Shown here: piece after piece, positions 3,497-13,918 of the stretch | Layout of the letters: the number at the start of each line of letters is the position of its first letter | How positions within the stretch are numbered: the stretch's first letter is position 1 | Translations under genes and position numbers: made by a program | From: Verrucomicrobiota bacterium | Lineage (GTDB): Bacteria; Verrucomicrobiota; Verrucomicrobiia; Limisphaerales; PALSA-1396 | DNA length: 64,000 bases | NCBI GenBank assembly: GCA_016200005.1 | Contig: JACQFP010000078.1 | Location: forward strand, 1 to 64,000 | Direction: 5' to 3' | Notes under the pieces: model-generated | Seen by the model: the letters and a program-made list of their open reading frames with translations, nothing else | Database searches by the model: none | Told to the model about the DNA's origin: nothing

Positions 3497-4495
3497 TTAA
3501 GCGTCCTTGTGTTTCAATTGGACTTGTTTGATTTCGATAAACGGGATCATGACTTCTTCGGAAGCCTGACCTTTGTCCACTTGAAAATGCATTTCGTTGG
3601 CGGCAATCCGGCTGATGCGCTGGCCGGTGAATTCGCCGCGCGAGGATTTGATCACCACCACCATGTCCTTCTCCGCGCCGCGTGGCACGACGCCAAAGAA
3701 GCCTGAGAATTTCGTTTCAAAAAAGCGCCGGTTGAAAATGAACTGGCCCCGTTCATAGACCACCGTAGGCGGCAGAGACGCCGCTGGTGCGGATGCGGGC
3801 GCGTTTCCATCCTGGGATGGAGCCGGGTGCGTTCCCGATCTTGCGATATGCAACCCGCCGGTGTCAGCCACGGGCGCTCCGCTCGCGGTTTCGGCGTATT
3901 CTTCAGGCGGCGCTTCCGGCAGCAATGCTTCTTCCTCGGCTTGCGTCAATTCTCCGCTTGGTTTCAATTGCATCGGCAGGGAAAGGAAAATGATTGGCCC
4001 GATGACAGGCGCCACGGCGGATACGCCGCACACCAACGCCACGGGTCGGGCACGGTAGTTGGAAATCTCAAACGCCGCGTAAAGGTTGCCCAGATAAAGA
4101 ACAAACAGGATGAACAGGCCGATGCCTGACGAAAACAACGCGCCGATCAACGATCCGGCCACCGGACGTTCCAGCCGCGGCACTTCGTTGATGGTGATCG
4201 CCTTCCTTTGAATCTTCTCGTCCTGCGTCAACTCAATGAACGGTTCGACGAACTGGGCGGCCTTGGCGTTCTTCTTGCTGATTTCTTTCAGGTCGCTCTG
4301 CGAGAATTTGCTCCACGGGATTCGGTCCGAGTATTTGTTGTCGCCGAGCTTGATCACGACGCCGCTCTCGTCTGAGGAAACGAACTCGCCCGTCATCGTT
4401 TGTCCGTCCTTGAGTTGATAGGTCTCGGCCCGGGCGAAGTCACCGAGCAGACCGTATAACGACACGAGGGCCAAAATTGTAAAAAACCTGCGCAC
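3497..4495 (-). CDS. Membrane protein with SHD1-like modules
   Basis: A 332-residue protein of unknown function. I chose the GTG at 4495 because a strong Shine-Dalgarno (TTAGGAGA) lies about eight bases upstream; the reading frame continues to a TTG at 4513 that would place this site inside the gene. An N-terminal signal-like segment (FFTILALVSLYGLLG) is followed by a module (LKDGQTMTGEFVSSDESGV to IPWSKFSQSDLKEI) resembling the SHD1-like domain of PVC bacteria. Two transmembrane helices lie around residues 115-140 and 150-172. A Pro/Ala-rich linker leads to a second similar module at the C-terminus. Confidence 0.6.
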   Translation of the reverse strand: MRRFFTILALVSLYGLLGDFARAETYQLKDGQTMTGEFVSSDESGVVIKLGDNKYSDRIPWSKFSQSDLKEISKKNAKAAQFVEPFIELTQDEKIQRKAITINEVPRLERPVAGSLIGALFSSGIGLFILFVLYLGNLYAAFEISNYRARPVALVCGVSAVAPVIGPIIFLSLPMQLKPSGELTQAEEEALLPEAPPEEYAETASGAPVADTGGLHIARSGTHPAPSQDGNAPASAPAASLPPTVVYERGQFIFNRRFFETKFSGFFGVVPRGAEKDMVVVIKSSRGEFTGQRISRIAANEMHFQVDKGQASEEVMIPFIEIKQVQLKHKDA

Positions 4496-4543
4496 AGGCA
4501 ATTCTCCTAACAAATGGCCGCAGGCAAAGGAAGTAAATTCACG

Positions 4544-5971
4544 CTACGCGCTTCCATGAATGTTGCGGCTCAACTGTTCCACCAAGTCCTCCACCGTCCA
4601 GGCGCTGTGCTCATCGCTGAGACGATCGGCAGAAACGCCGTGCTGCCACACGCCGTAGCGGATGGTTTTCAGGGCGTCACTTTGCAAAGCCGGTTGAGCG
4701 ATCAACCCACCCAAATACCCGGCCAACACGTCGCCGCTGCCGCCTTGCGCCAGATAAGGATTGCCCGATGAATTGATGAAAATCTCCCCGGCACTTCGAC
4801 CGACGAGCGATTGATGTCCTTTCAGTACCACCCAACAATCTCCGAATCGTTTCGAGATTTCGCGCAATGTGTTCGGGCGATTGGATTGGACCTGTTTCGA
4901 ATCAGCCTTCAACAACCTTGCGGCCTCGCCCGGGTGCGGCGTGATGACACGGACGGCGTTTTTGGGCACTGTTGAATTCACCGGCAGCCAGTCCAGCGCG
5001 CTCGCGTCAACCACCATCGGCAGCGGCGAATCTTTCCAAAGCCGGCGCAACGTAATTTTCAATTCGTCCGGCACTTCGGCGGCGGCCAGGCCCGGACCAA
5101 ACAAGATCGCGCTCGCCGTCGCGGGCAATCGAGGTTCAGGTTGCCACGTGGAAACCATGACGGCTTGCAGTTGGGCGGCGACGGGTTGATAAACGGTTTC
5201 CGAAGTTAACAGCGTGATCAAGCCGGGCTGGGCGCGTTGCGCGCCGCGCGCCGCCAGCACCGCCGCACCATGAAAACCGCGGCTGCCCGCGATGATGACT
5301 AAATGACCGCACGTTCCCTTGTGGCCCGCTGCCGGTCGCGGCGGCGGATAACCGGTGAAATCATCGGGCAATGTCCAGTTCAACTCACTCATGTGCGGAC
5401 ACGCAACCAAACCAATATCCGGCGCAACTTCGAGCCGACCGACCACCGACCACGCTTGTTGCACAAGCAACCCACGTTTGGGCGCACCGAGCGTCAGCGT
5501 GATCGAGGCTTGAATCGCCCCGCCAAACACTTCGCCCGTGTCCGCGTCCAGACCGGAAGGAACATCCACCGCGAGAATCGGTGCTCCAGCCGCGTTGACG
5601 AAATCGATGAGTTTGATCCAATGTTCATCCAGCGGCCGATTCAGACCGATCCCGAACAACGCATCAACGATCAGCGCCGGACGGTGTTTCAGTAACGACT
5701 TCAATTCGACCAGCGCCGCTGCTGGATCAGTCACGTTCAACAAAGGAACCTCGCGCCCGGCTAGATGCTCCTGGGCCAGACGCGCGTCGTCGCCGTTGTG
5801 ACCTTTGCCCGCCAGAATAAGAATCGTTTCGCCGGGATGAGTGAGTTGCAGCGCGCGCCGGGCGACGAGTTGGCCGACGCGGCGAATCACCTCCGCCTCG
5901 GTCTGGCCGGTGGCCCAGGTGGCTTGCTCCCACTCGCGCATCTGCGCAACACTCAGGACGGGGACGGACAT
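4544..5971 (-). CDS. nnr: Bifunctional NAD(P)H-hydrate epimerase/dehydratase
   Basis: Repairs damaged hydrated NADH and NADPH. The N-terminal half is the YjeF_N epimerase (GKGHNGDDARLA near residue 55; VDVPSGLDADTGE near 135). The C-terminal half is the ADP-dependent dehydratase (ribokinase fold), with ITPHPGEAARLL and the phosphate-binding LAQGGSGDVLAGYLGGLI. At 475 residues it is slightly shorter than the roughly 500-residue family norm. It is followed by no obvious partner and is probably transcribed alone. Confidence 0.95.
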   Translation of the reverse strand: MSVPVLSVAQMREWEQATWATGQTEAEVIRRVGQLVARRALQLTHPGETILILAGKGHNGDDARLAQEHLAGREVPLLNVTDPAAALVELKSLLKHRPALIVDALFGIGLNRPLDEHWIKLIDFVNAAGAPILAVDVPSGLDADTGEVFGGAIQASITLTLGAPKRGLLVQQAWSVVGRLEVAPDIGLVACPHMSELNWTLPDDFTGYPPPRPAAGHKGTCGHLVIIAGSRGFHGAAVLAARGAQRAQPGLITLLTSETVYQPVAAQLQAVMVSTWQPEPRLPATASAILFGPGLAAAEVPDELKITLRRLWKDSPLPMVVDASALDWLPVNSTVPKNAVRVITPHPGEAARLLKADSKQVQSNRPNTLREISKRFGDCWVVLKGHQSLVGRSAGEIFINSSGNPYLAQGGSGDVLAGYLGGLIAQPALQSDALKTIRYGVWQHGVSADRLSDEHSAWTVEDLVEQLSRNIHGSA

Positions 5972-6179: not shown

Positions 6180-6500
6180 ATGAAAGCGATCAACGAAGGT
6201 TTGCTGCAAACCGCCACCCAAAAACTGGTCGCGGAATTTCAGCCGGAGCAAATCTGGCTCTTTGGTTCGTACGCTTGGGGCGTGCCCACCGAAGACAGCG
6301 ACGTGGATTTGATGGTGATCGTTCCCCGCAGCGACGAACGCAGTATCAAACGAATGCAGCGCGCTCATCGCTGTCTGCGCGGGATTGGTTTCGCAAAGGA
6401 CGTGCTCGTTCCCACGCGCGCCCAGGTGGATCGTTACAAACACCTGCGCGCCTCCCTCTTTCACCAGGTTCTCGCCAAAGGCCGAAAACTTTATGGATGA
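6180..6500 (+). CDS. MNT-family minimal nucleotidyltransferase (antitoxin-like)
   Basis: A 106-residue protein with the minimal nucleotidyltransferase signature GSYAWG at about residues 29-34 followed by the catalytic DSDVDL. Members of this family pair with HEPN proteins and in the characterised MntA/HepT system act as antitoxin by AMPylating the HEPN toxin. The next gene, which overlaps its 3' end by 8 bp, is HEPN-like, so the arrangement fits a toxin-antitoxin pair, though many such pairs remain untested. Confidence 0.85.
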   Translation: MKAINEGLLQTATQKLVAEFQPEQIWLFGSYAWGVPTEDSDVDLMVIVPRSDERSIKRMQRAHRCLRGIGFAKDVLVPTRAQVDRYKHLRASLFHQVLAKGRKLYG

Positions 6501-6906
6501 GGCCACCACGGACCTCGTCCGCGACTGGCTGACGCGCGCGAGCCACGACTTGCAGGCCGCGCGAATCCTGGCAACGGCGGACAATCCACTCCTGGATGCG
6601 GCCATTTACCATTGCCAGCAAGCTGCGGAGAAAGCGGTCAAGGCCTGGCTGCAATCGAAGGACGATCCGTTTCCCAAAACGCACGACATCGAGGAGTTGG
6701 CGGAACAGGCCGCTAAACTGAATCCCGACTTTCAACAACTCGTAAAGCCGGCGGCCGTCTTGACGCCTTACGCCTCCGCGTTTCGCTATCCCGGCGGCGC
6801 GGACGAACCGATGCCCACGCGCGAAGAATTCGACGAAGCCCTGCAACACGCCCAAGCCATTTACGATTTCGTGCTGAATCTGCTTCCGGCGGAAGCGCGA
6901 CCATGA
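6493..6906 (+). CDS. HEPN-domain protein
   Basis: A 137-residue helical protein starting at the ATG that overlaps the MNT gene (ATGGATGA), implying translational coupling. It has the features of the larger HEPN subgroup: WLTRASHDLQAARIL, IYHCQQAAEKAVKAWL, the KTHDIEEL turn and a terminal RYPGG segment. The canonical R-x4-6-H RNase motif of HEPN toxins is not evident, so this may be a non-nuclease HEPN, and the toxin role is inference from the neighbour. Confidence 0.82.
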   Translation: MDEATTDLVRDWLTRASHDLQAARILATADNPLLDAAIYHCQQAAEKAVKAWLQSKDDPFPKTHDIEELAEQAAKLNPDFQQLVKPAAVLTPYASAFRYPGGADEPMPTREEFDEALQHAQAIYDFVLNLLPAEARP

Positions 6907-6952: not shown

Positions 6953-7558
6953 TTAGTCTCCACGTTTCTCCAGCACACGCTCGATGCGGCGGTCGGGAAC
7001 GAGCCACAGCAGGGCGACGAACACATACAAGCCGCTCGCAATCCACGGACTCACGAACGCGAGCGGGATGGCGATGAGATAGAGCGCCGGAGAGAGCTTA
7101 CCTTTCCAATCGCTGCCGATGGCGGACGCGAGCAGGGAGTCGCGGCCCTGCTGCGCGATGATGGTCCGTTGCAGAATGTAATAAGCAATGGCCGCCATCA
7201 GCAGCACCACGCCATAGACGGACGTGGGCGTGGGCGCGAGGTGGTTCTCGCCCATCCATCCCGTCGTGAAGGGAAAAAGCGACAGCCAGAAGAGCAGGTG
7301 CAGGTTCGCCCACAGGATGCCGCCGCTGACGTGTTTGGTGGAATGGAACATGTGGTGATGGTTGTTCCAATAGATGCCGACGTAGATGAAACTCAAAACG
7401 TAGCTCAATAGCACCGGCAGCAACGGTTTCAGGTTGGCGAGTTCATCCGGGTGCGGCATTTGTTCAGTCGGCTGCGGCACCTTCAATTCCAGCACCATGA
7501 TGGTGATGATGATGGCAATGACACCATCACTGAACGCTTCGAGGCGGTTCTTTTGCAT
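6953..7558 (-). CDS. TMEM175-family (DUF1211) membrane protein, potassium-channel-like
   Basis: A 201-residue polytopic membrane protein with the family hallmark RLEAFSDGVIAIIITIMVLE at the N-terminus; the FSDG motif lies in the pore-lining first helix of bacterial TMEM175 channels. About six hydrophobic helices follow, with the histidine-rich YWNNHHHMFH loop typical of the family. Bacterial relatives are weakly selective potassium channels; physiological role here is unknown. It stands alone between the HEPN gene and the defence cassette. Confidence 0.88.
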   Translation of the reverse strand: MQKNRLEAFSDGVIAIIITIMVLELKVPQPTEQMPHPDELANLKPLLPVLLSYVLSFIYVGIYWNNHHHMFHSTKHVSGGILWANLHLLFWLSLFPFTTGWMGENHLAPTPTSVYGVVLLMAAIAYYILQRTIIAQQGRDSLLASAIGSDWKGKLSPALYLIAIPLAFVSPWIASGLYVFVALLWLVPDRRIERVLEKRGD

Positions 7559-7614: not shown

Positions 7615-7717
7615 CCTCTCAACTCTCAACCAACGACCCTCAACCGCTTCTTAACCGCTGATAAACGCCGATGAACGCTGATTGAAAGGGCTGAAGGCCG
7701 ACAGATGATAACCCAGG
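7615..7717. repeat. Left arm of ~104-bp imperfect inverted repeat flanking the dcm-GHKL-vsr cassette
   Basis: Reverse-complemented, this stretch aligns over its whole length with 12658-12761; by hand roughly 90 of 104 positions match, with one gap. The best conserved block contains aatcagcgttcatc and gaagcggttgaggg. It lies 46 bp past the vsr stop. A small hairpin (acccagggc / gccctgggt, about 7711-7749) sits at its inner edge. Confidence 0.85.
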
Positions 7718-7763
7718 GCAAGCGAGATGAAGTCTGCGCCGCCCTGGGTAAACCATCAACGAT

Positions 7764-8174
7764 TCAAACCAATGCCCTTTGAATGCGCCGCAACAAACGA
7801 ATTTCATTCTTGCGGGCAAGCTCATGCTCCCAGATTCGCAACACACGCCAGTCTCTTTTCCGCAAAGTGCGAGACACGGAAAGGTCACGGGTTTTGTTTC
7901 GAATCATCTTAGCCCGCCAGTAAGTTTGATTGCTTCGTGGTGGCTTGGAATGTTTCAAGCAGCCGTGCCAAAAGCAGCCGTCCACAAAAACTGCCAGCCT
8001 AGCTTCACGGAACACGAAGTCTGGTTTTCCAATGAGAGGCCAGCACCGACGCCAACCGGAGATGCGCGCTTTGCGGAATAGGCGAACGAGTGTCAGTTCC
8101 GTGTCCTTGTTGCCGCTCGAACGAATCCGCGACATCACGTCGGAACGCTTTCGGATGGAAAACACGTCGGCCAT
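7764..8174 (-). CDS. vsr: Vsr-type very short patch repair endonuclease
   Basis: Nicks next to T:G mismatches that arise by deamination of 5-methylcytosine. The 136-residue protein has the usual size and the core KPDFV (Asp52, the counterpart of catalytic Asp51 in E. coli Vsr), FVDGCFWHGC (His70) and a conserved Asp at 97. Asp65 stands where E. coli has His64, a change common in non-enterobacterial Vsr proteins. It is the last gene of a four-gene operon that starts with a cytosine-C5 methyltransferase, 12 bp after the preceding gene. Confidence 0.92.
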   Translation of the reverse strand: MADVFSIRKRSDVMSRIRSSGNKDTELTLVRLFRKARISGWRRCWPLIGKPDFVFREARLAVFVDGCFWHGCLKHSKPPRSNQTYWRAKMIRNKTRDLSVSRTLRKRDWRVLRIWEHELARKNEIRLLRRIQRALV

Positions 8175-8186
8175 TTGCTGTAAAGG

Positions 8187-9461
8187 TCACTTCATCTCAA
8201 CGATTTCACCATCGTCAACCCACTTAACGTATGCGGCGCGGTCGTAGCCCGCCGATTCGAGCAGACTAGCGTGTGCATCTCGCAACTCGGCTTTGAGTTC
8301 GGGATTTGCGGCGAGTTCCTCGTCAATGTCGCAAATTATAGAAACCAATTCGGCAAGCTTGACCGCGCACTCACGCTCGTCGGGATACTTCTTTGCGGGC
8401 AGGCTTAGTTTTGTCATTCCGCTCTCATCCACAGGTGGGGCGATGTTTGGCCTTAGTGCGAACGCGAGTGAAAGCATGATTGCTCCCTTATCTTTGTTTA
8501 TGCAGTGCCGAAAACTCTTGCGCATAACAATTGTCCACTGAGGCTTAGCTCTTTGGCACAGCGCCAACAGCCACTTTCCAAGCGCAACGCTAAACAGTTG
8601 CACCAGGTGATCCTCATTCAGTGCCGACAGGTTAAGTGAAGTCGCGGCACTCCGAAAAGCTTCTTCAGGCAGGAACTTCCTAATTTGGTCGGCAAAGTCT
8701 TTGTGCTTGGTAAAATTGTCACGGGTCGGACCGCACAGGGTTTGCAGGCCTTCCGGGTGAACGACTGCGGGTTCAACCATCGTAGTAATAAAAAGCAGCC
8801 ACTCGGTTTTCTGGTGTTCGAATTGGTAGGAGAGAAGCCGATACAAAGCGTCGTAGTATTCGGTCGGGGCTTTGGCAGTATTTGGAAACATCGAACCACA
8901 TAGGTCGAGATTCACGACGTGATACGGTCCGTATTCCTTCAAGTATCGGAGTGCCTGCGATTCAGGCAAAGCGATAGATTCAAAGCGGTCCTGTAAGACG
9001 CGCGAATTTGTTGCCACACGCAGCAGGGAAGTTACGGCATTGTTAGCGACGTGAACGCGCGTTCCCTTCTGATCCGAGCCTTGGCTTTCGTTGAAACCAA
9101 GATATCGAATGAAACAATTCAACTCGTTCACATCGCGCCAAAGGGCGCGAACATCAAGCAGGTCTTCGCCAGGGATTACGAGACACCGGAGCGGGCGATC
9201 CAAGCCTACGTTTGCGGGCAAATCAAACTTAACCCCGGCGCTGGAGGTTTCATCAAGCGACCATTCACCTTCATCCTGCTGTAGCTGTTGTCGCCAATAG
9301 CGCTTAATCATTCGCGCTGTCAGCTCGTTCCACTGAAAACGCCGGATGTATTCTTTTTTCACCCGATGCCACGGAAGAAACTTGTCCCGCGGCGGCTCTG
9401 TATGTGCAGGCAGCTCGTCCTGTATGATGTCATCAGCAAAGTCAGACCCTTCGGAACTCAT
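8187..9461 (-). CDS. Unrecognised protein of the dcm-GHKL-vsr cassette
   Basis: A 424-residue soluble protein; I cannot assign it to a characterised family. It begins 3 bp after the GHKL ATPase gene and ends 12 bp before vsr, so it is an integral operon member. The central part reads like a degraded Rossmann/methyltransferase fold: RCLVIPGEDLLDVRALW at about residues 89-105 and YGPYHVVNLDLCGSMF at about 182-197, resembling motifs I and IV of class I enzymes. The remainder is mostly helical with conserved-looking Trp/His patches. From memory it resembles proteins annotated in databases only by locus-style family names beside methyltransferases; this is unverified. Confidence 0.8.
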   Translation of the reverse strand: MSSEGSDFADDIIQDELPAHTEPPRDKFLPWHRVKKEYIRRFQWNELTARMIKRYWRQQLQQDEGEWSLDETSSAGVKFDLPANVGLDRPLRCLVIPGEDLLDVRALWRDVNELNCFIRYLGFNESQGSDQKGTRVHVANNAVTSLLRVATNSRVLQDRFESIALPESQALRYLKEYGPYHVVNLDLCGSMFPNTAKAPTEYYDALYRLLSYQFEHQKTEWLLFITTMVEPAVVHPEGLQTLCGPTRDNFTKHKDFADQIRKFLPEEAFRSAATSLNLSALNEDHLVQLFSVALGKWLLALCQRAKPQWTIVMRKSFRHCINKDKGAIMLSLAFALRPNIAPPVDESGMTKLSLPAKKYPDERECAVKLAELVSIICDIDEELAANPELKAELRDAHASLLESAGYDRAAYVKWVDDGEIVEMK

Positions 9462-9464
9462 GCG

Positions 9465-11423
9465 CTAACCTTCCAGTAAAACGATCTCGAGAATGTCGCG
9501 AACAAGTTTTTCCTGCTCATCGAACGACAGCCTTTCAAGCAATCCCCATCCGTGCAGAAGCTGAACAACAGCGACGGCTTTCTTTTCAGCCAGTTTTCGC
9601 CTCTCGCCTTCCGCTGAAGTGGTGTATTTCGCTGGAGACGGCGGAAGCACTACATTTTTCCTGAGAGCGATCATGCCTTCGCTGCGTAGCTTTCGCGCTT
9701 CTGATTGCTTGGCCGGTTCAAGCAAAACAACTTCAGGAACGTCCTCCACCCCACGTGCTTTCAAAGCTGCTTCGACCTTTTCCTCAACTTTTTCCCGGAC
9801 TCTCTTTCCCTGCGTCACAAGTTTGTGTGATCGTACGTCGCTGCCAATTTCTTTGTGGCGGTTGGCAAGTTGTCTCAGCGCAGAGTGCAGCCATTTGACG
9901 AGATATTGGTAGTGTGGATGCGCGTAGTTAAAAGATTCGCGGTCGATGTTTATTGCCCCGTCCAGACCTTCGCGCACAAAAATCTCTGCGGTGATTTGCC
10001 GGGTGCGCGTTTGCTCTGACACTTGGTATCCCATGAATGTCCTATCAAAAAGCGCACCCGAGGCATTGCCGACGCGCAGGATTACCCCTTGATGCTGCTT
10101 CGGAATAATTCGGGGTGACCAAAAAAGATACGCTTCAAACACCAATGGTCCGCCGCTCATTTCCACGTGCTTCTTCTCAAACTTCTGGGAGTCATGACCT
10201 ATGAACAACAATGGGTTTTTTACAGCGGTCTTTGTCTTCGGGAGGTTTCGATAGAGAATCGGGCGAAACAACTGCACGCCGTCAATAAACACGTCGAACC
10301 TTTCTCCCGGAGCACCGTTGGGAGTTTTGAGTCGCAGGGCCTTTCGCGGGGTTTCACCATTTTCAAGTTTGAGTTTTTTAGCCTGTCCACGCGCACGGTT
10401 TTCGATTTCAAAGAACACAAATTCCTCGTCGCCAGCTAAATCAAACGGATGCCCTTCAAGATATTCGAGTGGCGCAGAAACAGAGAGTGTCCAGAGCGTC
10501 TGCAGATATCGATCCAAGAAAATATCCAGGTCAACTGACTCGGTTTCCACGGCGGCATCACGCACAGCGTTTACAAACTTTTCAAAACGCTCTCGCGGCT
10601 GATCGTTTTCGTCCCACGGCAATTGTGGTTGCACTTCGAGCAGTTCCTCCTGCTTCGGCTTCATGCGACCGATGTGCCAAGCCGGCGGCTTTGTCTTTTC
10701 GACTTCGGCCTCCGCCTTCTCATAGTCAATCTTCGTCCAAAGGTCATCACTTGCCAGTTCGGCGCGCGTGCGCGGAAGCAGATCGAGCAATTTGACTTCT
10801 GTCCCGTGAGAATTCCGGTCGGTCGCACGTTCGCGCCAAATGCGTGCGTGTCCCGTTTCGATTTCGCGCCGCCCGCCTTCCTTTAGTGGAAGCAATTTTT
10901 GCTGCCCGCCGACTGAGCCAAGCGTGATGTCCGCAATTGTCCGGTGGGTGTCGCCCTTTGTTTTTGTGATGATGAGAAAATGTCGCGTAAACTGCGCAAC
11001 AGAGAAAAGACCGATGCCGAGCTTCCCAATCAGTTGACGCCCGCCTGGGCTGCGGTTTTCGTCAGTCTTGGCCGTGACACCTAGCTCCTTGCCTTCTTCA
11101 CTCCGTTTCACGCTGCCACCGATATGTTTGATGAGGTGCTCTAACACTTCGGGAGATAGGCCAAGCCCGTTATCACGGATGGAAATTTGCGCGAATCGCG
11201 GTGCATCAGTCAGTATGACTACCTCTGCCGAATCCGCGTCGTATGCGTTAGAGATTAGTTCGCGCAAAGCCGAAGAAGGCTGTCGATAAATGCCGTCTGT
11301 GATGCGAGCCAGCACGCGCTCGTCGGTGGCAAGCATTGTCTCCACCGGCATTCGTGACTTCTCTGACGCGCGAATTTGCTCCGCGAGTGGCTGCTCTACC
11401 GGGGTGGTTTTGGATTTAGCCAT
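9465..11423 (-). CDS. GHKL (MutL/Hsp90/MORC-like) ATPase
   Basis: A 652-residue ATPase. The ATG at 11423 is preferred over an upstream start because it overlaps the methyltransferase stop (ATGGCTAA), indicating translational coupling. GHKL motifs are complete: N-box SALRELISNAYDAD (Glu55, Asn59), G1 IRDNGLGLS (84-90), G2 IGKLGIGLFSV (132-142) and G3 NSHGTEVKL. A transducer-like domain and a long charged C-terminal coiled region follow. Iyer, Abhiman and Aravind (2008) described MutL/MORC-like ATPases in bacterial restriction-modification operons with C5 methylases and Vsr-type nucleases; the gene order here fits that class. Confidence 0.93.
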   Translation of the reverse strand: MAKSKTTPVEQPLAEQIRASEKSRMPVETMLATDERVLARITDGIYRQPSSALRELISNAYDADSAEVVILTDAPRFAQISIRDNGLGLSPEVLEHLIKHIGGSVKRSEEGKELGVTAKTDENRSPGGRQLIGKLGIGLFSVAQFTRHFLIITKTKGDTHRTIADITLGSVGGQQKLLPLKEGGRREIETGHARIWRERATDRNSHGTEVKLLDLLPRTRAELASDDLWTKIDYEKAEAEVEKTKPPAWHIGRMKPKQEELLEVQPQLPWDENDQPRERFEKFVNAVRDAAVETESVDLDIFLDRYLQTLWTLSVSAPLEYLEGHPFDLAGDEEFVFFEIENRARGQAKKLKLENGETPRKALRLKTPNGAPGERFDVFIDGVQLFRPILYRNLPKTKTAVKNPLLFIGHDSQKFEKKHVEMSGGPLVFEAYLFWSPRIIPKQHQGVILRVGNASGALFDRTFMGYQVSEQTRTRQITAEIFVREGLDGAINIDRESFNYAHPHYQYLVKWLHSALRQLANRHKEIGSDVRSHKLVTQGKRVREKVEEKVEAALKARGVEDVPEVVLLEPAKQSEARKLRSEGMIALRKNVVLPPSPAKYTTSAEGERRKLAEKKAVAVVQLLHGWGLLERLSFDEQEKLVRDILEIVLLEG

Positions 11424-12516
11424 GCAGGCAGACAGGAATGTCGGCCAACTCGGCAAGTACGGATAGAACTGCTTTCGCAAGCGGAGGCGGCACAGCGTTG
11501 GTCACTTGTTCCATCTGATTGGCGAAAGAACCATAAACTCGGAAACTGTCCGGGAATCCCTGAAGTCTGGCAGCTTCTCGCACGGTTATGCTGCGCGGTT
11601 CTTTGAAGTGTGCAGGCGGCGCTCGGTGGCCGGAAAAAAGCGTGTTCGAAAGGCGAGTCGGATGCAGGCGGCGGTATGACATCGGGCCAGTGCCTGGGTC
11701 AATGGCCGCAATCTTCTTCATCACTCGCTCAGAGTGCCGCATGGCGAAATGATTGGCAACGCCACCGTAATCTTTGTCATCGTCGTAGTCGTCGGGACGG
11801 ACTTTGGGATCGGACAATCCATTCAGCGTTTCCCTTGCGCCAACGGGATCGGTCTTGAATTCCTCCAGTCGCTCCAAAACGACATGCTCATCGATGGGCT
11901 GCTTGGTCACTAAAAAGAATGCGCGTCTCCGTTTCTGTGACACTCCAAATTCCGATGCGTCGAGAACGATGTGCGTGATGTGAAACTCGCCCTGCTGAAT
12001 TATTTGCTCAAATTTCCGAATTCGATCACTGTGCTTGTCTGCGAGTAACATCGAGACGTTTTCGATCAGTGCACAGTCAGGCTGTAGCTTTGAGACAGCG
12101 CGCGCAACGGCAACCAGCACCTGATTGCGCGGGTCTGCGGGATCGCGAGAACCGGCAGCGGAGAAACCCTGACATGGCGGCCCTGAAAGAATTATCGTTG
12201 GCTGGTTTGCAGCTTTGAATGGTTCTAATAACTTTGCGCATTCCGCGAGAATTGTTTTGGAACGAACGCTTCCTTCCAAAGCTTTGGTGGCAGGGAAGTT
12301 TTTGGAGAACGTCTTGAGAGCGCTTGAATTGACGTCCACGCCGGCGACGATTTGCACACCTAGTTTCTTGGCGGCCAGAGACAGCCCACCCAAACCGCAG
12401 CACAAATCAACCGCACCCGGCGCAGTGGGCGGGGTGCATTGGACGGCGAGGCTTTGTTCCGAACGGTTAGACGGTCGGTTCGTGCCATTGATTGCCTGTT
12501 CGGTCGTTGAAATCAC
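11416..12516 (-). CDS. dcm: DNA (cytosine-5-)-methyltransferase
   Basis: Methylates cytosine at C5 in a sequence-specific context. All core motifs are in order in the 366-residue protein: motif I VDLCCGLGGLS (36-46), motif IV GPPCQGFSAAG with catalytic Cys115, motif VI ENV (152-154), motif VIII QKRRR (194-198), motif IX REAARLQGFPD and motif X QVTNAVPPPLA. The variable target-recognition region between VIII and IX is short, so the target cannot be predicted. It is the first gene of the operon with the GHKL ATPase, the unrecognised protein and vsr. Confidence 0.97.
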   Translation of the reverse strand: MISTTEQAINGTNRPSNRSEQSLAVQCTPPTAPGAVDLCCGLGGLSLAAKKLGVQIVAGVDVNSSALKTFSKNFPATKALEGSVRSKTILAECAKLLEPFKAANQPTIILSGPPCQGFSAAGSRDPADPRNQVLVAVARAVSKLQPDCALIENVSMLLADKHSDRIRKFEQIIQQGEFHITHIVLDASEFGVSQKRRRAFFLVTKQPIDEHVVLERLEEFKTDPVGARETLNGLSDPKVRPDDYDDDKDYGGVANHFAMRHSERVMKKIAAIDPGTGPMSYRRLHPTRLSNTLFSGHRAPPAHFKEPRSITVREAARLQGFPDSFRVYGSFANQMEQVTNAVPPPLAKAVLSVLAELADIPVCLHG

Positions 12517-12838
12517 TTGGTTGCCTTTCAGACTGTTACACGCAAGCCAGTTTCATTGCCATCATTTTCAAATGCGCAAAGTTGGCTAGAATTTCAAGGT
12601 TTTCACGCGAAACATTCAACTCCTCACCCCCAGCCGCTCTTCGTTCAAAGCGTATGGCCTGGGCTATTATCTGTCGGGTTGTCAGCCCTGTGAATCAGCG
12701 TTCATCCGCGTCAATCAGCGGTTCAGAAGCGGTTGAGGGCCGTTGGTTGAGAGTTGAGAGGGGAGCAGAGCACTTCATCGGAGGTCCTCACCCCAGTCCG
12801 GCTCCCATCCGATTGGCAAGGGTAGCGGTCGCCTCGTT
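12517..12838. other. Intergenic region with right repeat arm and repeat remnant
   Basis: The 322-bp gap between dcm and msrP holds no convincing gene. It contains the right arm of the inverted repeat (12658-12761) and, near 12785-12825, a degraded copy of the cctcacc...ggtgagg hairpin family. The dcm promoter should lie at its left end, but I see no clear -35/-10 pair. Confidence 0.6.
12658..12761. repeat. Right arm of ~104-bp imperfect inverted repeat
   Basis: Aligns to the reverse complement of 7615-7717. Together the arms bound a 5.1-kb segment that contains exactly the four cassette genes. Sequence resembles dispersed intergenic repeats rather than transposon ends, since no target duplication is evident. 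Confidence 0.85.
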
Positions 12839-13843
12839 TCACTTCGCATACAGCTTCGCCACGTAGCTGCCGTAACCGTTGTAAGGCTGCGTCCGGACGC
12901 GGTCGCCGCTGTCGATCATGCGTTCCGTCGCCTGTGACCAGCGCGGGTGCGGCACGGCGGGGTTGACATTGGATTCAAACGGATACTCGTCCGGCGCGAG
13001 CGTTTCCCACAAGGTCGCCGGTTGCTGCGTGACGAACTCGATCTTCACAATCGACTTGATGCTCTTGTAGCCGTATTTCCACGGCACGATGATGCGGATG
13101 GGTGCGCCATGCTGCTTGGGCAACGGCTTGCCGTAAATGCCGGTGACCAACATCGTCAGCGGATTCATCGCTTCATCCAGCCGGAGGCCCTCGGTATAAG
13201 GCAGCGGATAACCTTGCTGAATCAGCCTGGCCCAGCCCGGCGCTTGATCGGGACGATTGAAAGTCTGCCATCGAATAAATTTGGCTTCCGGTTTGGGAGA
13301 AACTTTTTCGATGAGTTTGCTGAGCGGAAAACCGGTCCAAGGAACAATCATGCCCCACGCTTCCACACAACGAAAGCGATAGACCCGCTCTTCCATCGGC
13401 ATCGTCACAATCAATTCCTGAACGTCGAGCGTCATCGGTTTTTCAACAAGGCCACTGATTTCGACCGGCCACGGCGCGGTGACGAATTTGTCCACGAGTT
13501 GGCGCACGCGGTCCTTGGTCGTGGAGAATTCGTAGAAGTTGTTGTACGTGCCCGCGATCTTTTCATTCGTCAACGGCCAGCCGGGATTGAACTCCGGGTT
13601 GCGCGGGTAAGGGTATTTGCCGGGGGACACTGGCGAGCCGGACGGTTTCGGCTCCGGTGTCGCGGTGGCGGCAGCAGGTGGATTCGCCGCTTCTTTCGAA
13701 CAACCGAGGAGCGGCAACGACATCAAGCCGGCGCTCGTGACTCCCATCTGCTTGAGGAAGCGGCGGCGATTCAGGAACACGGATTCCGGCGTAACGTGCC
13801 GCTCTGGAATAAACCAATCCGGACGACGAATGATATTGAACAT
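12839..13843 (-). CDS. msrP: MsrP-type protein-methionine-sulfoxide reductase catalytic subunit
   Basis: Periplasmic molybdopterin enzyme that reduces methionine sulfoxide in envelope proteins. A twin-arginine leader (NRRRFLKQMG) is followed by a lipobox-like LLGCSK and a Pro/Ala-rich linker. The Mo-ligand Cys lies in FRCVEAWGMIVPW, and the GAPIRIIVPWKYGYKSIK segment is typical. I prefer the ATG at 13843 over the TTG 18 bp upstream because the family begins close to the (I)PERxVTPESV motif. The haem-membrane partner MsrQ is not seen nearby. Confidence 0.92.
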   Translation of the reverse strand: MFNIIRRPDWFIPERHVTPESVFLNRRRFLKQMGVTSAGLMSLPLLGCSKEAANPPAAATATPEPKPSGSPVSPGKYPYPRNPEFNPGWPLTNEKIAGTYNNFYEFSTTKDRVRQLVDKFVTAPWPVEISGLVEKPMTLDVQELIVTMPMEERVYRFRCVEAWGMIVPWTGFPLSKLIEKVSPKPEAKFIRWQTFNRPDQAPGWARLIQQGYPLPYTEGLRLDEAMNPLTMLVTGIYGKPLPKQHGAPIRIIVPWKYGYKSIKSIVKIEFVTQQPATLWETLAPDEYPFESNVNPAVPHPRWSQATERMIDSGDRVRTQPYNGYGSYVAKLYAK

Positions 13844-13918
13844 GGGATCAAGTTGCTTCAACGTGGTTCATATTTCATCATCACAATCACAAACACAAAT
13901 GGAAAAAATTTTCCGCTT

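Follow-up and report, generated by a model that had tools for sequence, protein, structure and literature searches.

What does an operon that couples a DNA methyltransferase to a MORC-like ATPase do when it carries no recognisable restriction enzyme? The role of MORC-like ATPases in bacterial restriction-modification (R-M) operons has been open since 2008, when Iyer, Abhiman and Aravind described MORC/paraMORC ATPases alongside cytosine methylases and Vsr in R-M operons and proposed DNA looping (PMC2292703). The same question is raised by a locus in the window, that is, the whole analysed stretch of 64,000 nucleotides from a Verrucomicrobiota bacterium (contig JACQFP010000078.1). Genes for a C5-cytosine DNA methyltransferase (C5-MTase), a GHKL ATPase, a third protein (P3) and a Vsr-type mismatch endonuclease follow one another in this order on the minus strand (Table 1), with an 8-bp overlap between C5-MTase and GHKL, a 3-bp gap between GHKL and P3 and a 12-bp gap between P3 and Vsr, just as the first-pass annotation had described. 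The overlap is counted from the ATG at 11423, and the open frame of GHKL extends back to a TTG at 11480. The C5-MTase is complete, judging by its PF00145 and TIGR00675 matches and by the copy in a congener. Vsr contains the PDF and VDGCFWHGC motifs; it scores 58.7 bits against PF03852 (cut-off 27) and 92.5 bits against TIGR00632, just under the cut-off of 97.85. Domain and family profiles did not reveal a recognised restriction nuclease within the four-gene operon. We nevertheless regard it as probably an R-M-like defence system, in which GHKL and P3 would be the effector module while the C5-MTase would set the mark and Vsr would serve repair.

Table 1. Positions in the window of the operon genes, the flanking genes and the segments that differ from the congener
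Feature	Positions	Strand	Evidence or remark
TMEM175 family gene, downstream flank	6953-7558	-	PF06736, 3.7e-33
Left arm of imperfect inverted repeat	7615-7731	+	Not alignable with the congener's sequence at the site
Vsr-type mismatch endonuclease, 136 aa	7764-8174	-	PF03852, 5.3e-16
Segment without nucleotide similarity to the congener (replaced GHKL-P3)	8177-11455		blastn matches end at 11456 and begin again at 8176
P3, PP_RS20740 family protein, 424 aa	8187-9461	-	NF047698, 283.7 bits; AlphaFold model
GHKL ATPase with Hsp90/MORC-type middle domain, 652 aa from ATG 11423	9465-11423	-	HATPase_c_3, 5.1e-12
C5-MTase (C5-cytosine DNA methyltransferase), 366 aa	11416-12516	-	PF00145, 4.7e-52; TIGR00675, 138.5 bits
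Right arm of imperfect inverted repeat	12644-12761	-	Inside about 214 bases (12623-12836) absent from the congener
Molybdopterin oxidoreductase domain gene, upstream flank	12839-13861	-	PF00174, 7.7e-33

The ATPase itself has the N-box (ExxNxxDA), DxGxG, GxxGxG and GT motifs, and residues E74, N78, D81, A82, D103, G105, G107, G152, G155, G157 and T227 (numbered from the TTG at 11480) are invariant in 26 homologues, with G226 present in 25 of them. Its AlphaFold model (pLDDT 84) matches the Hsp90 module with a Z score of 18.2 and the MORC3 ATPase module with one of 18.0, and an invariant N-x-D-R motif (N511, D513, R514) resembles the Hsp90 catalytic-arginine loop. We found no nuclease domain in GHKL with domain profiles, and no nuclease fold among the listed structural matches, which cover residues 51-550 only and barely reach the C-terminus (Foldseek, VIA). 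The nearest proteins with reported restriction or anti-phage activity are GHKL-nuclease fusions, namely the BbrUII/HgiDII type (NF050001) and VcSduA (GHKL-Shedu, paraMORC3; PMC12137116). These have the same kind of GHKL ATPase, but the GHKL-Shedu proteins carry a C-terminal PD-(D/E)xK nuclease and the GHKL of the window is without such a domain.

The strongest competitor of an R-M-like system without a visible nuclease is conventional cleavage, in which an unrecognised nuclease site in P3 or in the helical C-terminus of GHKL would cut unmethylated sites in the manner of R.BbrUII and R.HgiDII. We hold this to be a real possibility, with the odds somewhat against it. Among named families, the BbrUII/HgiDII restriction enzymes are indeed nearest to the GHKL domain, two relatives from the same order (L055 and L056) have a GHKL fused to a Shedu-like nuclease beside an MTase, with or without Vsr, and the eight invariant residues of P3 (K36, R40, W44, D103, N184, L185, D186 and Q213 in 30 sequences) are consistent with an active site. 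However, GHKL scores 58.8 bits against NF050001, where the cut-off is 550, and its matches to restriction-enzyme models are confined to the ATPase region (residues 63-234 for the best NF050001 stretch); beyond residue 532 no column of GHKL is conserved at 90%, and P3 matches no nuclease model in profile searches and has a predicted methyltransferase fold.

P3 had been left as an unrecognised protein, but its match to NCBIfam NF047698 (PP_RS20740 family, function unknown) lies well above the curated cut-off of 200 bits, and it therefore belongs to a known family of unknown function. PP_RS20740 of Pseudomonas putida is a hypothetical protein mutated in furfural adaptation, whose function was left unexplained there (PMC9630843). 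Neither Pfam nor PADLOC gave a match for P3, and a PDB sequence search, with the single protein and with a profile, gave no meaningful one. In its AlphaFold model (30 sequences; pLDDT 85.5, pTM 0.86), strands and helices follow the class I methyltransferase order. The best structural match is Trm1 (3axs; Z 14.2, 3.9 A over 228 residues, 10% identity), the second and third are also Trm1 (Z 12.3), and other methyltransferases score about 12; we predict a Trm1-like class I methyltransferase fold. The invariant positions include those that in the model follow strands 1 and 4, places where methyltransferases bind ligand and substrate.

Such a fold could make P3 itself an enzyme, and methylation of DNA or RNA by the pair might then be either a second modification or the toxic action of an effector. 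The nearly invariant motif IV region (FDVINLDLCDS) agrees with this idea as the fold does, but the motif I position reads LPGxDLLD instead of GxGxG, and GFN stands where strand 2 should end in an acidic residue. Both are non-canonical for a catalytic class I SAM methyltransferase, so that SAM binding by P3 is only putative. Moreover, none of the 30 P3 members matches the Trm1 family (PF02005) or another methyltransferase model, and we consider an active P3 rather improbable. We also asked whether P3 resembles a response regulator, following the analogy of the TCS-like HEF_HK / Response_reg_2 elements that Bellieny-Rabelo (2021) found with C5-methylase and Vsr and that have a similar order of methylase, GHKL, third protein and Vsr (PMC8011034). 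Their third protein is receiver-like (PF19192), whereas P3 has a predicted methyltransferase fold and none of its 30 members matches PF19192 at E values up to 1; the analogy was rejected.

Scanning viral contigs with the GHKL alignment gave six full-length relatives, and scanning genome contigs with the P3 alignment gave 30 loci, spread over many phyla. On viral contigs, neither P3 by itself nor a two-row alignment gave any hit. GHKL and P3 are adjacent in every intact locus. When we counted the loci where they are adjacent and the flanks visible, leaving out L072 and L078, which are cut by contig ends, a modification gene adjoined the pair in 36 of 36: a C5-MTase in 31 (window, G001, L060-L065, L069-L071, L073, L074, L076, L077, L079-L089, L091-L094 and L114; a few of them, such as L070 and L089, carry probable frameshifts), dnd genes for phosphorothioation in four and an N4/N6-MTase in one. 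The C5-MTase lies upstream of the pair and in the same direction in 26 of the 31, and on the opposite strand in the other five (L077, L080, L086, L088 and L093). Vsr occurs nearby in 12 of the C5 loci, in varying positions and orientations, and is not adjacent in 19; it was not seen at the five dnd or N4/N6 loci, which are too few to carry statistical weight. The first-pass annotation had proposed an R-M-like cassette with a MutL/MORC-like ATPase and a search for the four-gene arrangement in other genomes: the C5-MTase-GHKL-P3 core does recur across many phyla, but Vsr belongs to it in a minority of loci only.

The dnd cases are four loci from four MAGs of Poribacteria, where GHKL-P3 stands beside dndCDE. 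In three (L095-L097) the pair lies between pbeA-pbeC-associated genes and dndE-D-C, and in L113 a SNF2 helicase gene and ParB-like genes separate it from dndE, which is about 4 kb away. The same pair is thus found in or near a locus of Dnd/Pbe phosphorothioation defence (PMC6459918, PMC10853773), whereas no phosphorothioation genes stand beside the operon of the window; a 2024 survey of Dnd systems holds no mention of GHKL. In a genome that belongs to the order of the window, the N4/N6-type methyltransferase stands directly upstream of a GHKL-P3 pair of the congener's type (L110, 418-3725, plus strand), and the contig ends inside P3. In a Nitrospirae MAG (L079) an NgoMIV-family restriction enzyme (3539-4708, plus strand; PF09015, 3.1e-51) sits between the MTase and GHKL-P3-Vsr, so the pair is not the sole restriction enzyme there and may in some hosts be an accessory or supplement to ordinary restriction.

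Four loci (L062-L065) sit on contigs of lambdoid-type prophages, and RusA, NinG, O-like and repressor genes were present on those that we tested for them. The distribution is thin, at one of 388 sampled genomes of the phylum and two of 369 in the class to which the Stenotrophomonas locus L081 belongs; the genome from which each search started is itself counted. P3 proteins had no match in plasmids or in phages, and two prophage-borne operons had none in E. coli genomes. Some loci are incomplete: G513 has an intact MTase and Vsr, a 166-aa GHKL remnant and no P3, the GHKL fragment of L112 adjoins a transposase-like frame, and P3 stands alone at L075/L111 and L090. The state of G513, with the modification genes kept and the effector lost, is what would be expected if the effector is dispensable while the mark stays.

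The four proteins fall into two modules. Over 25 loci the distance matrices of GHKL and P3 correlate with r 0.915, as against 0.481 for GHKL and MTase and 0.562 for P3 and MTase; the correlation is 0.628 between MTase and Vsr (12 loci) and 0.035 between GHKL and Vsr (11 loci). The trees of GHKL and P3 agree, while that of the MTase deviates at G001, L079/L093 and L086. GHKL and P3 are a coherent pair, and MTase and Vsr a looser second module. Vsr together with GHKL had earlier been suggested as a possible source of the nuclease activity. We tried Vsr as the restriction nuclease and disfavour it because it is not adjacent to the pair in those 19 C5 loci and the five others, varies in position and orientation where present, and is uncoupled from GHKL in the distances. 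A repair or epigenetic operon, in which a MutL-like GHKL would join Vsr in repairing deaminated methylcytosine and P3 would serve as a factor at the mismatch site, seems to us very unlikely. A Vsr-MutL interaction in E. coli, cited in PMC2292703, and the linkage of MTase and Vsr at this locus are in keeping with it, but the pair does without an adjacent Vsr at most C5 loci and at all five others, the GHKL and Vsr distances are uncorrelated (0.04), the congener kept its Vsr while GHKL-P3 was replaced, and G513 keeps Vsr without GHKL-P3.

The locus of the congener (G001) has the order of the window: TMEM175-family gene, Vsr, P3, GHKL, MTase and molybdopterin oxidoreductase gene. PLJQ01000102.1 (Limisphaerales MAG palsa_1396) encodes four proteins identical to those of the congener's operon. 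When we compared the window with the congener's locus (L023), nucleotide identity was 89% for the TMEM175 gene, 85% for the molybdopterin oxidoreductase gene, 82% for the MTase and 79% for Vsr, and protein identity was 82% for the MTase and 81% for Vsr. GHKL and P3, by contrast, fall in the segment without nucleotide similarity, whose breakpoints lie almost at the gene ends. Their proteins are 27% (GHKL) and 18% (P3) identical in full alignments; locally aligned, GHKL reaches 29% over 532 aa and P3 25% over 234 aa. In the trees, the MTases of window and congener are sisters (99/96), while the GHKL of the congener belongs to a different deep clade, with Poribacteria (100/99); the placement of its P3, also with Poribacteria, is weakly supported and involves long branches. 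By this comparison the GHKL-P3 pair was swapped as a unit at a syntenic locus where MTase and Vsr were kept. The replacement most likely happened in the lineage of the congener, since a window-type GHKL-P3 goes with every other window-type MTase for which the pair is visible, and the GHKL remnant of G513 is 65% identical to the GHKL of the window. The two congeners, with the same MTase and Vsr and a different GHKL-P3, amount to a natural experiment that could separate the specificity of marking from that of the effector.

The inverted repeat that had been noted around the operon exists and does enclose it, but at about 117 nt it is longer than the 104 bp first given. It consists of a block of 80 nt with 91% identity (7615-7694 / 12682-12761) and one of 34 nt with 76% identity (7698-7731 / 12644-12677), and it is far beyond chance (E 1.7e-31). 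Blocks of about 27-72 nt from it recur elsewhere in the genome of the window and in that of the congener, so that each arm is a mosaic of dispersed repeats. The family of dispersed repeats comprises CTCAACTCTCAACCAACG- and CGCTGATNAACGCCGATGAACGCTGATT-like blocks in both genomes, with copies, for example, at G000:C64:38351-38422 and G000:C26:128828-128887. That the operon might move as a unit between the arms, as a transposon-like cassette bounded by them, is scarcely credible even though they enclose it exactly, because in the congener no such repeat surrounds the operon although its site is the same, so that the arms are not terminal inverted repeats travelling with a cargo or the boundary of a mobile unit, and because no transposase lies between them and they are made of repeats dispersed over the genome.

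Compared with the MORC/paraMORC R-M operons of 2008, the operon of the window shares a GHKL+S5-type ATPase beside a cytosine methylase and Vsr as well as a scattered, mobile distribution; most of those operons also have a helicase or an RE-fold nuclease, the latter either fused or separate, whereas here the constant partner is P3 (PMC2292703). The families paraMORC1-5 are told apart by a C-terminal extension or motif of their own, for which the 2008 text gives partial motifs, and P3 might be one of the domains X1-X3 or Z1-Z3 in Figure 2 of the same paper. In the open-access literature we did not find a report of a GHKL ATPase with phosphorothioation or of this exact operon, nor a description of GHKL-P3 as a module common to several modification chemistries.

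How might an R-M-like defence system of this make-up work? Going by their families, the C5-MTase would mark a short sequence in the host DNA and Vsr would repair the T:G mismatches left by deamination of methylcytosine. In the effector module, GHKL would act as an ATP-driven dimeric clamp of the Hsp90/MORC kind with P3 as its partner. The pair would load on DNA without the host mark, P3 possibly reading the state of modification at the site, and would then block or destroy the unmarked DNA. Since neither GHKL nor P3 has a recognisable nuclease domain, the DNA may be cleaved through an undetected site or by another nuclease, or the pair may block it uncut. The comparison of loci shows the pairing, its exchange as a unit, the constant company of modification genes and a loss of the effector with the mark kept; we infer that P3 is the sensor, that the pair acts on DNA and that the system serves defence at all. 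Carriage by lambdoid-type prophages and the scattered distribution fit defence, and related GHKL+nuclease proteins restrict, the BbrUII/HgiDII type by its NCBIfam name and VcSduA against phage (PMC12137116). Counting against this reading, the MAGs in which dnd genes accompany the pair are four and belong to one phylum, the N4/N6 case is a single contig that cuts P3, and a shared defence-island neighbourhood of the pair and modification genes can be coincidental.

A bolder version, which we consider unlikely, would make GHKL-P3 a general non-cutting effector: an ATP-driven clamp of the MORC/Hsp90 kind, coupled to a sensor of methyltransferase fold, would close on unmarked DNA and silence or compact it. 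If true, one clamp would plug onto C5-methyl, N4/N6-methyl or phosphorothioate marks and would be a bacterial counterpart of eukaryotic MORC silencing. The locus and its relatives narrow the question of 2008 to a two-protein unit that evolves and is exchanged as one, has no visible nuclease and accompanies three marking chemistries, and they offer a testable role for a protein family whose only name to date is taken from a locus tag.

The surroundings of the operon and the same order hold some further systems. In the window a HEPN-MNT pair (6180-6906, plus strand), in which a nucleotidyltransferase frame (PF01909) overlaps a HEPN frame (PF05168, 1.4e-27), is probably a toxin-antitoxin module, separated by about 0.9 kb from the end of the operon at which Vsr lies; beyond its TMEM175 gene, the contig of the congener has a RecQ-like helicase frame (by eye) in place of HEPN-MNT. 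The genome of the congener also carries a second GHKL system (L068, 1-3706, on G001:C395). It consists of a C5-MTase, a protein of 771 aa in which there are two HATPase domains, and a receiver-domain protein that is truncated where the contig ends, and it resembles the TCS-like elements of PMC8011034. The fused loci of the two same-order genomes (L055, 5291-8721, and L056, 5237-8318) each comprise a C5-MTase and a GHKL with a Shedu-like (SduA_C) C-terminus, and Vsr accompanies the first and not the second.
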